Notes under the pieces: model-generated
Database searches by the model: none
The model's input: only the letters and a program-made list of their open reading frames with translations
What the model was told of the DNA's origin: nothing
Made by a program: the position numbers and the translations under genes
In this document: one piece after another, positions 23,172 to 39,143 of the stretch
Position numbering within the stretch: position 1 is the first letter of the stretch
Layout: each line of letters opens with the position of its first letter
Origin: Streptomyces lienomycini
GTDB taxonomy: Bacteria > Actinomycetota > Actinomycetes > Streptomycetales > Streptomycetaceae
Direction: 5' to 3'
Length of the DNA: 64,000 bases
Assembly (NCBI RefSeq): GCF_027947595.1
Contig: NZ_CP116257.1
Location: forward strand, 6,756,001 to 6,820,000

Positions 23172-23177
23172 CCAACG

Positions 23178-23251
23178 TGCGCCGCCAGGGACTCGAACCC
23201 CGGACCCGCTGATTAAGAGTCAGCTGCTCTAACCAACTGAGCTAGCGGCGC
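23178..23251 (-). tRNA. tRNA-Lys (anticodon CTT), copy 1
   Basis: A 74-nt tRNA with acceptor stem GCGCCGC/GCGGCGC, discriminator A, anticodon arm GCTGA-CTCTTAA-TCAGC (anticodon CTT) and T-arm CGGGG-TTCGAGT-CCCTG with one mismatch-type pair. CCA is not encoded. The sequence is identical to the copies at 35672 and 39062. Its 5' end overlaps the last bases of the upstream protein gene, whose TAG stop lies within the tRNA. Confidence 0.97.
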
Positions 23252-23862
23252 CTGCTGACGTCGTAGACCTTAGCATCCTGGTCGGCGGGAGGAAAAATCG
23301 AAATCCGCACCGCCGCACGGGCCGCGCGGACGGCTGCCCAGAGCATGATTTCCGGGCCGGGCAGCCACGGCAGGCGGGTGTCCGGGGCCACCAGCCAGCG
23401 GGACGCGGAACGCCGGGCCGCGCCCGCGGGGGCCGGGACGGTCACCGCGTCCCCGGCGCCGTGGCACAGCAGCGGCGGCACCGCGCCCGTACGACCGCCC
23501 GCGCGGCCGCGGGCGCCCCACTCCTCCCAGGCGAGCAGCGACGGCAGCCGCTGGGCGGTGCCCGGGGCGGCGAACAGCAGCATCCGGCCGCGGTACTCCG
23601 CCACGGGGCCGGAGCCGGGTCCGTCGTCCCACATCCGGTCCAGCATCCGGCGTCCGAAGATCGCGGGTGCGCTCACCACGTCGAAGGCGGAGCCGCAGGG
23701 CAGCACGACGGGGGCCTCGGGCCGCTCCTCCCAGTGTGCGAGCGTGCTGCGCGGATACGCGCCCGCCGAGGCCAGCCAGGCGGCGCCGTCCGAGGTGACG
23801 TCCGAGACGTGGGGCGAGGCATCGAGCGGGGCGTCGGGCGCGGCGTTGCGTGTGCTGCTCAT
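23242..23862 (-). CDS. Prim-Pol-like conserved Streptomyces protein
   Basis: A 206-residue cytoplasmic protein resembling the Streptomyces proteins annotated as bifunctional DNA primase/polymerase, N-terminal. It opens with a helix (SDGAAWLASAGAYPRSTLAHW), has the strand VVLPCGSAFDVVSAP, the conserved AEYRGRMLLFAAPGTA and late SRWLVAPDTRLPWLPG. The catalytic acidic residues of true Prim-Pols are not obvious. ATG 23862 has no good ribosome site, so translation may be leaderless or the start different. The frame has no stop until the TAG inside the tRNA-Lys gene, giving a 10-base overlap with mature tRNA sequence. Confidence 0.75.
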   Translation of the reverse strand: MSSTRNAAPDAPLDASPHVSDVTSDGAAWLASAGAYPRSTLAHWEERPEAPVVLPCGSAFDVVSAPAIFGRRMLDRMWDDGPGSGPVAEYRGRMLLFAAPGTAQRLPSLLAWEEWGARGRAGGRTGAVPPLLCHGAGDAVTVPAPAGAARRSASRWLVAPDTRLPWLPGPEIMLWAAVRAARAAVRISIFPPADQDAKVYDVSRRR

Positions 23863-26151: not shown

Positions 26152-26353
26152 TCGCCGTGAGAATAGGGTCCATCCCCGGAGCTGACAAGACTCCAGACAA
26201 GTTCAGAATGCGAATCAGTGTCTCTCTACATGAACGACCGTGCGGGGAGAGCGCGAGGACGATGCGAGGACGATGCGGGGACGACGCGGGGAGAGCCCGA
26301 GAGAGGGCCGACGCGCCGCGCGGCCGATGTGCACCCCGGGCCGAGCTGCGGTA

Positions 26354-26359
26354 CGATCA
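26354..26359 (+). promoter_or_regulatory. Possible -10 of the tRNA-Gly-like transcript
   Basis: TACGAT fits the Streptomyces -10 pattern TANNNT and lies about 43 bases before the tRNA-like sequence, with a GGGGG-CCCAA-CCCCC hairpin in between. No clear -35 is visible. The rest of the 26152-26353 gap holds short GAGGACGATGCG-type repeats and no gene I can support. Confidence 0.3.
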
Positions 26360-26401
26360 TCTTGCCTGATCACGGGGGCCCAACCCCCAGCAGCAGGCAG
26401 T

Positions 26402-26471
26402 GCGTTGGTGGTCCAAGGAAAGACGCCCCACTTCCCGTGGGGAAATGCAGGTGCAAGGCCTGCCCAGCGCT
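26402..26471 (+). tRNA. tRNA-Gly(UCC)-like gene with non-canonical T-loop and short D-stem
   Basis: A 70-nt cloverleaf can be drawn by eye. The acceptor stem is GCGTTGG (26402-26408) with CCAGCGC (26464-26470), seven pairs including one G-U. The D-arm is a 3-bp stem GTC/GAC with an 8-nt loop that keeps GG. The anticodon stem is CCCCA/TGGGG with loop CTTCCCG, giving anticodon TCC (Gly) after U33. A 4-nt variable region precedes T-stem GCAGG/CCTGC. Discriminator T is the bacterial Gly identity base. The T-loop is TGCAAGG instead of TTCRANY. CCA is not encoded. It may be a specialised tRNA (for example for cell-wall glycine) or a decaying pseudogene. The normal tRNA-Gly(UCC) would be elsewhere. 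Confidence 0.6.
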
Positions 26472-26475
26472 CGAC

Positions 26476-26513
26476 GAGAACCCCGGCCCCGCTCACGCGG
26501 GACCGGGGTTCTC
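26476..26513 (+). terminator. Terminator after the tRNA-Gly-like gene
   Basis: A strong hairpin, GAGAACCCCGG(C)CCCGC with loop TCAC and its complement, followed by TTGTG. It starts five bases after the tRNA-like discriminator and precedes the 3' end of the convergent isomerase gene, supporting a short independent rightward transcript. Confidence 0.8.
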
Positions 26514-26531: not shown

Positions 26532-27263
26532 TCAGGCCTGCACCAGCGGCTCCCGGGTGAACAGCGCGCCCAGGTCGGGGGCGTTGACCCTGCGGTCCGC
26601 CAGGCGCAGGCCCTCCCAGACGGTGACCTGGTTGGCGGTGAGGACCGGTTTGCCCAGTTCCTTCTCCAGGGTGGGGATGTGGGCCGCCGTGTGCAGGGCC
26701 GTGTCCGGCAGGAGCACCGCCTGGGCGTCCGGGCGGTCGGCCGCGCGGGCCAGCGCCAGCACCTGCGACTCGGTCCAGGTGCCGACCTCCGCCGCCGTGA
26801 TGACGCCCGAGCCGACCACGTCGACGACCTCGATGCCGGCGGCGCCGAGGAACTCCGCGAAGAGCCCCGCCACGTCGTCCGGATAGGTGGCCCCGATCGA
26901 GACCCGCCGCACCCCGAGCTCCTCCGCCGCCCGCACGAAGGCGAAGGAGGTGGAGGAGGCGGGCAGGCCCGCCGACTGGGCCAGGGCGCGCACCTGCTCC
27001 TGCGCGCCCTCCCAGCCGTGCACGAAGCTGCCGCTGGTGCAGGCCCAGACCACGGCGTCGGCACCGGAGAGCCGCAGTTGCGCCACGCCCGACTCCAGCC
27101 GCCGCGGCGAGCCCATCTCGCGCAGGGCGTCCACGCGGTGCGCGTCCTCGCCGATGTCCGTGTGCACCAGGTCCACCCGGATGTCGCTGCCCAGGAGCTG
27201 CTCGATGCGTGGATAGTCGTCCTCGCCGGAGTGGCCCGGGTACAGGAATCCCAGTGCTGTCAT
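26532..27263 (-). CDS. Asp/Glu racemase-fold protein (maleate isomerase/AMDase-like), second copy
   Basis: A 243-residue cytoplasmic enzyme of the Asp/Glu/hydantoin racemase superfamily, close to arylmalonate decarboxylase, maleate cis-trans isomerase and EutA of ectoine clusters. The first active-site Cys is in VVWACTSGSFVHG (about residue 80). The second Cys, in the C-terminal lobe of maleate isomerases, is replaced: the segment reads AVLLPDTALHTA. That argues for altered chemistry, as in one-Cys decarboxylases. Its ATG overlaps the upstream paralogue's stop as ATGA, so the two are made together. Confidence 0.82.
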   Translation of the reverse strand: MTALGFLYPGHSGEDDYPRIEQLLGSDIRVDLVHTDIGEDAHRVDALREMGSPRRLESGVAQLRLSGADAVVWACTSGSFVHGWEGAQEQVRALAQSAGLPASSTSFAFVRAAEELGVRRVSIGATYPDDVAGLFAEFLGAAGIEVVDVVGSGVITAAEVGTWTESQVLALARAADRPDAQAVLLPDTALHTAAHIPTLEKELGKPVLTANQVTVWEGLRLADRRVNAPDLGALFTREPLVQA

Positions 27264-28159
27264 GTCCACCCTTCCTGCTGTTCCGTGTCCGGGCCGTCAC
27301 CGACGCCCGGCATGTCCGCCACCGCGGGTCCGACCGGGCCCGCCACCGCGGGGCCGACCGGGCCGACGGGGCCCACCACCGCGGGACCGCCCGGACCCGT
27401 GGCCGCGGGGCCCAGGCGCGCGGCCGGATCGGTCAGCGCCTGGTACGGCCCCACCGCAGGAGTACCCAGTCGGCGCAGCGCCGCCCACATCGTCACTTGG
27501 TTGGCCGAGATCACCGGGATCCGCAGCTCGGCCTCCAGCTGCGGGATGACGTCGTAGGTGGGGAGGTTGGTGCAGGAGATGAAGAGGGCGTCCGCGGCCC
27601 CCTGGACCGGCACGGCCTGGCGTGCCATGTCGGCCACGTCGCGGTACGGGACCCGCCAGATGTGCCGGGTCAGCCCCATGAAGGCGCAGCCGGTGATCGT
27701 GACGCCGGCTTCGGCGACGTACGCCTCCAGCGCCCGGGTCACGGACACGGTGTACGGCGTCACCAGCGCGACCCGGCGTACGCCCAGCTCGGCCAGCGCG
27801 TCCAGCAGGGCGCCCGAGGTGGTGACGGACGGGACCGCGCCCGCCCAGGTCATCGCCTCGCACATGGCGCGCTCCCCGGCGATGCCGCCGACGAAGCTGC
27901 CGGAGGTGCAGGCGTAGGCGACGACCTCGGGTGCGATGGCGTTGAGGGTGCGCACCGCCTCGCCGAGGGTTTCGTGCTCACTGACCAGCCGGGCGAGGTC
28001 CAGACTGACCTCGACGGGCACGAACGGTGTCCGGGTCATGTGGAGTGACACGTCGTCGGGCACCCATCGCCACAGCTCGCGATCGAGTGCGAAGTCGAAC
28101 GGGGCGACCACGCCGACCCCGCGTTGCGGAGCTGGTCCGCCGAGAAAGGAGATGTCCAT
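27260..28159 (-). CDS. Asp/Glu racemase-fold protein (maleate isomerase/AMDase-like), first copy
   Basis: A 299-residue paralogue of the downstream gene. Both catalytic Cys are present: VAYACTSGSFVGG (about residue 85) and LFISCTNLPTYD (about 195). It therefore has the two-Cys set for racemase or isomerase chemistry on a small dicarboxylate or amino-dicarboxylate. The last 40 residues form a collagen-like tail of Gly-Pro-Ala/Val units (GPVGPVGPAVAGPVGPAV) not needed for the fold. ATG 28159 is used; GTG 28177 is possible. It is the first gene after a good leftward promoter and divergent from the dehydrogenase gene. Confidence 0.84.
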   Translation of the reverse strand: MDISFLGGPAPQRGVGVVAPFDFALDRELWRWVPDDVSLHMTRTPFVPVEVSLDLARLVSEHETLGEAVRTLNAIAPEVVAYACTSGSFVGGIAGERAMCEAMTWAGAVPSVTTSGALLDALAELGVRRVALVTPYTVSVTRALEAYVAEAGVTITGCAFMGLTRHIWRVPYRDVADMARQAVPVQGAADALFISCTNLPTYDVIPQLEAELRIPVISANQVTMWAALRRLGTPAVGPYQALTDPAARLGPAATGPGGPAVVGPVGPVGPAVAGPVGPAVADMPGVGDGPDTEQQEGWT

Positions 28160-35575: not shown

Positions 35576-35671
35576 GACGTACGCGTGCGGGCCGGGCCGG
35601 TCGGGAGCACTGCTCGGGACCGGGTAGTATTTTCTCCGTCGCCGACCGCGGAAGCGGACGGCGGGAGTCAT

Positions 35672-35745
35672 GCGCCGCTAGCTCAGTTGGTTAGAGCAGC
35701 TGACTCTTAATCAGCGGGTCCGGGGTTCGAGTCCCTGGCGGCGCA
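35672..35745 (+). tRNA. tRNA-Lys (anticodon CTT), copy 2
   Basis: A 74-nt tRNA identical to the copies at 23178 and 39062, with anticodon CTT and discriminator A, CCA not encoded. A -10-like TAGTAT at 35625-35630 lies 42 bases upstream. It is a monocistronic tRNA unit followed by a perfect terminator. Confidence 0.97.
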
Positions 35746-35750
35746 CAACG

Positions 35751-38852: not shown

Positions 38853-39061
38853 GCGATTCCCCTCACACTCCCGGCGGAAATGCCCGAGTCGGTCCACTTC
38901 GGTAGATGTCGGTCAGTTTCTCAACTGTCCCTCCGGCACGCATGTTGACGGTCCGAATGATGTAACCGGCCCCGGAAGGTCCCGAGGGAAGCCCGGCGGG
39001 ACCCCGGCGGGAGTGGTCCGGAGCACGGGTCGGCATCGGGTAGAGTTGTGCAGGTCAGCAG

Positions 39062-39135
39062 GCGCCGCTAGCTCAGTTGGTTAGAGCAGCTGACTCTTAA
39101 TCAGCGGGTCCGGGGTTCGAGTCCCTGGCGGCGCA
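39062..39135 (+). tRNA. tRNA-Lys (anticodon CTT), copy 3
   Basis: A 74-nt tRNA identical to copies 1 and 2. A -10-like TAGAGT at 39041-39046 lies close upstream. With copy 2 it forms 74-bp direct repeats 3,390 bp apart around lpmP, the SPFH gene and the NlpC/P60-like gene. Confidence 0.97.
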
Positions 39136-39143
39136 CCGACGGT

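Follow-up and report, generated by a model that had tools for sequence, protein, structure and literature searches.

The window analysed in this study, a 64,000-nt stretch of the Streptomyces lienomycini chromosome (GCF_027947595.1, NZ_CP116257.1, positions 6,756,001-6,820,000, forward strand; its genome is labelled G000), holds at 26402-26471 (+) a tRNA-Gly(UCC)-like RNA that belongs to a conserved family, termed class I, whose tRNA-Gly-like genes are dispersed and flanked by signals resembling a promoter and a terminator. Class I is present in 220 of 392 Streptomyces genomes according to a covariance model, at unrelated sites and including plasmids. The features needed for charging with glycine are kept in this family and those for codon reading are often lost; therefore, the glycine is probably handed to a non-ribosomal acceptor. 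From these sequence features we give an even chance to the reading that class I is an accessory tRNA-Gly that would be charged yet remain outside translation, donating its glycine elsewhere.

Structure and transcription signals of the class I RNA

A sequence-only reading of this DNA had described a cloverleaf with a UCC anticodon, U73, a TGCAAGG T-loop and a 3-bp D-stem, all of which were confirmed. The 70-nt stretch folds into a full cloverleaf with an MFE of -33.3 kcal/mol (z -2.81; 3 of 200 shuffles were equally stable), and ARAGORN called a tRNA-Gly(tcc) in the window at 26402-26472. The acceptor stem pairs 26402-26408 with 26464-26470, leaving U73 at 26471; the D-arm (26411-26424, +) has three pairs and a short loop with GG; the anticodon arm (26426-26442, +) carries the loop CUUCCCG, with UCC at 26433-26435, a pyrimidine (C) at position 37 and a possible C32-G38 pair; and, after a variable loop of 4 nt, the T-arm (26447-26463, +) reads GCAGG-TGCAAGG-CCTGC, with G55 in place of U55, G49-C65 and A51-U63. 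Manual reading in tRNA numbering indicated that U8-A14, A15-U48, G19-C56 and U54-A58 can still form in class I. In the Infernal-type check proposed with the cloverleaf, the window RNA scored 41.3 bits under the Rfam tRNA model in a genome search (cut-off 29; second lowest among 68 matches), whereas cmscan of the window itself missed the RNA both with the gathering threshold and with a limit of E<=10, for which filters were perhaps responsible.

The suspected -10 element was likewise supported. In the window it reads TACGAT (26352-26357, +), with no conserved -35, and a TAnnnT box was found 35-61 nt upstream of 170 of 173 class I copies, compared with 1 of 173 far-upstream controls and 18 of 51 ordinary tRNA leaders in G000; the 173 units behind the -10, leader and downstream counts were collected with a search pattern and are mutually non-independent. 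The presumed start region contained GATCTTGA in 52 of 173 class I upstream stretches, with no occurrence in three control readings or in the 51 ordinary leaders. This sequence directly follows the -10-like box, mostly 39-41 nt ahead of the class I tRNA start, and may be a start-region signal or an operator.

The leader of the window copy forms a hairpin at 26362-26400 (+), with an outer stem of 26362-26368/26394-26400 and an inner stem of 26374-26378/26384-26388. Across 95 non-redundant leaders (from 142 of the 173 copies) the mean folding z was -2.01, versus -0.05 in stretches far upstream. Folding is also seen in ordinary tRNA leaders of G000, some of them located behind another tRNA (mean z -1.06, n=51), a result that weakened the proposal that the leader hairpin is a special domain. 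The 60 nt downstream of class I had a mean MFE of -36.3 against -23.8 for the far-upstream control (173 copies). In the window this region holds an intrinsic-terminator-like hairpin (26476-26513, +); the RNA had been credited with a strong terminator of its own, of which the hairpin stands and the strength is only partly right, the T-run being weak.

Distribution and conservation of class I

The covariance model matched 230 of the 392 genomes, and removal of 10 with class II cross-hits only (class II is described below) left the 220, among which one (G332) is counted on a 53-nt fragment. Most genomes have one to three matches and the maximum is 9 copies (G245, checked); the copy numbers are counts of matches, a few of which may be class II cross-hits. 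BLAST detected class I in 17 of 61 genomes, own genome included. An exact-pattern search returned at least 120 class I stretches, 119 of the 120 among the matches listed being Streptomyces by title; outside this genus, class I was seen in one Actinacidiphila (L148) and, among 50 family genomes, in a single one (G420). A search of 72,556 plasmid records gave 68 that carry class I (66 Streptomyces, 2 Streptantibioticus), and each of the S. clavuligerus plasmid records among the matches listed has it at 4 to 8 places; eight of the plasmid records were inspected, and 6 are linear and 2 circular. Class I is probably an accessory gene that spreads through chromosomes and plasmids alike. A phage origin was rejected, because 50,697 phage records searched with an E limit of 0.01 gave no class I match and IMG/VR contained no exact match to the class I pattern.

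A partner among neighboring genes was also rejected. No linked gene was seen in 8 plasmid regions (one without annotation) or 20 genome contexts, and when 1322 predicted genes from 188 loci, reduced to 102 independent places, were clustered, the commonest family within 2.5 kb occurred at 6 of the 102 places and none at more.

The comparison of stems across Streptomyces that had been suggested for this RNA was carried out on 17 aligned copies (12 distinct rows), where pairing is kept and paired changes are present: 97.9% of the pair cells pair, versus 38-47% with slid partners. The covariation score of the same alignment was reached by 0 of 500 shuffles, although kinship alone can yield such a score without structure. 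The possibility that the RNA is a tRNA pseudogene, which the sequence-only reading had left standing, or an integration-site remnant is accordingly judged extremely improbable. A low Rfam score, two copies with broken 5' ends (L212, L257) and one partial match (L027) point in that direction, but 220 of 392 genomes keep the family, its stems show paired changes, its -10-like box is conserved, and no flank family is common to more than 6 of 102 places. Structure and constraint are not lost in class I; a pseudogene is excluded for the family because copies at many unrelated places show no variation in the bases that identify them to GlyRS and almost none in the loops. In L212, L257 and L027, class I decay can be observed as well.

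Charging determinants and decoding features

Base counts were made on 43 distinct copies from 101 matches in 100 sources, obtained by BLAST and covariance model with no base pattern; L001 (the window copy), L018-L021, the fragments L027 and L257, L434-L436 and all exact-pattern-scan loci are excluded from this set. A separate pattern set comprised 58 distinct copies, of which 2 with broken 5' ends were set aside. A51-U63 is present in all 56 that remain, but since the search pattern and filter demand U73, A51, U63, G1 and C2, this set cannot count as evidence on the T-arm or on U73, G1 and C2.

The bacterial glycine tRNA determinants listed in Table 1 of PMC9976931 are G1-C72, C2-G71, G3-C70, U73 and the anticodon CC. 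Every one of the 43 distinct copies has them all, the CC lying in the anticodon loop. Decoding features are kept less well. A canonical elongator has a 7-nt anticodon loop with U33 and a purine at position 37, an arrangement that class I as a family does not show: 18 of 43 copies, each 69 nt long, lack one base of the anticodon arm, and position 37 is a pyrimidine (C or U) throughout the 25 seven-nt loops. In 16 of the 18 short copies the loop is a plain 6-nt one (CAGCCG, CAACCG, CATCCG, CTCCAA or CTGCCG) in which CC is retained and the preceding bases vary; the other two (L420, L431) may instead be missing a stem base. Because the 6-nt loops always retain CC, it is suggested that the class I anticodon survives only as a handle for GlyRS.

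The T-arm departs from the canonical form as well. In place of UUCRANY, the T-loop reads TGCAAGG in all 17 BLAST-found copies of the alignment and in 40 of the 43 distinct copies, the other three of which also have G55. A51-U63 occurs in the window and in 39 of 43 distinct copies (the exceptions being three A.G and one G.U) and G49-C65 in 43 of 43. The corresponding pairs in the four canonical tRNA-Gly sequences examined from G000 are G49-U65 and G51-C63. G000 holds canonical UCC, CCC and GCC tRNA-Gly; the canonical tRNA-Gly(UCC) at G000:C1:6555575 is like class I in its GlyRS determinants and UCC and unlike it in T-loop, D-arm, T-stem, variable loop and position 37. Counted against a non-decoding role are the 25 of 43 copies with a 7-nt loop, U33 and UCC, the presence of G18-G19 in 40 of 43, and the fact that A51-U63 is not invariant.

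A core relative in the Streptomycetaceae

Weak matches to the class I model led to a second RNA, class II, a 72-nt tRNA-Gly(UCC) with the T-arm GCAG(U)G-UGCAAUU-CCUGU. In G000 it is located at G000:C1:7675679-7675750 (L096:80-151), upstream of tRNA-Gly(GCC), and 39 of 41 copies read precede tRNA-Gly(GCC) by 53-117 nt. All 37 Streptomyces genomes that were checked have class II, each scoring at least 97 bits, whereas 24 genomes outside Streptomyces gave at most 71 bits under the class II model, overlapping the scores of canonical tRNA-Gly (64.8 in G000; 58-66 for those read). With stricter filters, class II was detected in 107 of 150 family genomes and in 14 of 16 genera other than Streptomyces; the misses among the 150 are 38 of 38 genomes of genus g27, 3 of 3 of g24, one of the two from g29 and a genome that is 71% complete. 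In the genomes read from g27 (three) and g24 (one), a tandem pair of tRNA-Gly(GCC) genes was seen, perhaps at the corresponding locus.

The Streptomyces class II copies read have no GG in the D-loop (AGTAGTA or AGTAGCA), while those read from g15 and g18 have both the D-loop GG and a UUC T-loop; therefore, the odd loops of class II probably arose stepwise within the family. Class II shares with class I the UCC anticodon, U73, the T-arm consensus GCAG-G-UGCAA-CCUG, G55, A51-U63 and a 4-nt variable loop (as drawn). It is unlike class I in being present in 37 of 37 Streptomyces genomes and in having a 4-bp D-stem, no D-loop GG (in Streptomyces), a bulged T-stem U and A37. Given the close resemblance of the T-arms, class I may derive from class II. 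Annotation may miss both families, ARAGORN having called 3 of 41 class II copies and, among 12 loci with 69-nt class I, none as tRNA-Gly.

Possible roles of class I

The following route is proposed for class I. A free-standing gene for a non-decoding tRNA-Gly, perhaps derived from class II and spread among chromosomes and plasmids as an accessory element, would be transcribed from its own promoter and its product processed in a tRNA-like manner. GlyRS would charge this RNA through the acceptor stem, U73 and C35-C36, determinants that are observed in the copies. The charged RNA would then escape translation through weak EF-Tu binding by its T-stem and an anticodon arm unfit for decoding, and a trans-acting transferase, possibly FemX or another tRNA-dependent ligase, would pass the glycine to a non-ribosomal acceptor. 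Combined with class II, this would give the Streptomycetaceae a two-tier set of non-translational tRNA-Gly, with class II as the core tier, its loops decaying stepwise, and class I as the mobile, multi-copy tier, its anticodon a GlyRS handle and the RNA a free-standing donor for a glycyl-transfer pathway. Our confidence in this broader scheme falls somewhat below even.

The sequence-only reading had placed the RNA as a dedicated glycyl donor for the peptidoglycan bridge, and the two parts of that suggestion fared differently: a glycine-charged RNA outside translation is well supported by the sequence features, whereas the assignment to the wall-bridge step is not favored by the gene counts. 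FemAB (PF02388) is found in 392 of 392 Streptomyces genomes and class I in 220, leaving 172 with FemAB and without class I, and the number of FemAB genes is not followed either. With scoring limited to 4 candidates in each genome, 128 of 220 class I-positive and 104 of 172 negative genomes show at least 4 matched pieces of FemAB, a number read as two genes or more (Fisher p 0.68), and the Spearman correlation between class I and FemAB numbers is -0.04; a link between accessory FemAB and class I was rejected on both values. FemX may nevertheless be the partner because it is universal in the genomes, and FemX and VanK of S. coelicolor use aminoacyl-tRNA according to a review (PMC4052509). The analogy with S. 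aureus points the same way. The near-universal class II is a better candidate for the wall donor than class I, yet it was not found in genus g27, where FemAB is present in 12 of 12 genomes searched. Overall, class I as the wall-bridge donor specifically, supplying Gly-tRNA to FemX, is considered rather doubtful.

Two further explanations dispense with glycine donation. A decoy or regulatory mimic of glycine tRNA, titrating an enzyme that acts on tRNA-Gly (e.g., a TacT-type acetylating toxin that reads U73/G71) or tuning GlyRS, would suit the patchy, multi-copy and partly plasmid-borne pattern, which fits a conflict or dosage role, as well as the conservation of the loops beyond the needs of pairing; TacT recognition of U73/G71 is reported in PMC9976931. 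With no linked gene and a near-universal class II relative that suggests a housekeeping origin, such a mimic appears unlikely. The remaining explanation, in which an accessory gene supplies an extra elongator tRNA-Gly(UCC) for GGA/GGG codons, draws on the intact 7-nt UCC loops with U33 and the D-loop GG counted above, and on a tRNA-gene-like unit whose leader folds like those of ordinary tRNA genes. It has to contend with the base lost from the anticodon arm in 18 of 43 copies, the pyrimidine 37 of all 25 seven-nt loops, G55, the common A51-U63 and a canonical UCC tRNA already in the genome, and is regarded as quite improbable.

Comparison with known systems and significance

The non-proteinogenic tRNA-Gly of S. 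aureus, donors for the wall pentaglycine, offer a close parallel. Like class I, they have UCC, altered D- and T-arms and the T-stem pair A51-U63, and are additional to a canonical set; by this analogy, charging of class I by GlyRS would be expected. As described in PMC4052509, these S. aureus tRNAs have A49-U65 and A51-U63, the latter a pair associated with weak EF-Tu binding, and have lost GG18-19. Class I shows only A51-U63 of these three traits: it has G49-C65 instead of A49-U65 (43 of 43) and keeps GG18-19 in 40 of 43 copies. It also differs in its dispersal on chromosomes and plasmids and in the 6-nt anticodon loops of some copies. The tRNA-Other of Bacillus cereus is reported to be another tRNA-like RNA outside translation, the deletion of which gives wall and resistance phenotypes; it forms part of a larger RNA located at an island, whereas class I is a compact unit.

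No description of a noncanonical tRNA-Gly in Streptomyces was found in titles and the starts of abstracts, with most subscription journals lying outside the search. The diversion of aminoacyl-tRNA from translation to wall ligases is, in most instances, somewhat unclear according to the same review (PMC4052509). Two conserved tRNA families with charging determinants kept and decoding ones altered make this question testable in non-pathogenic antibiotic producers, and classes I and II suggest an overlooked tRNA input to the wall or natural-product chemistry of Streptomyces.

Additional observations

Within the window, two adjoining proteins of the arylmalonate decarboxylase/Asp-Glu racemase type are encoded at 26532-28111 (-), convergent with the class I gene and near a D-2-hydroxyacid dehydrogenase, an amidase and a DUF3830 protein; no link between the racemase-type pair and the tRNA gene was seen. 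The window also contains three near-identical tRNA-Lys(CUU), at 23177-23259 (-), 35669-35746 (+) and 39054-39136 (+). The first and third form an exact 83-nt inverted repeat, and a direct repeat 3390 bases apart joins 35669 and 39059; these repeats are possibly duplicated attachment sites. Elsewhere in G000, a tRNA-Cys at G000:C1:6929673-6929744 is followed 3.5 kb on by a degenerate tRNA-Cys-like remnant (6933251-6933315, 31.3 bits) with a tRNA-like 3' half, such as an integrated element might leave.
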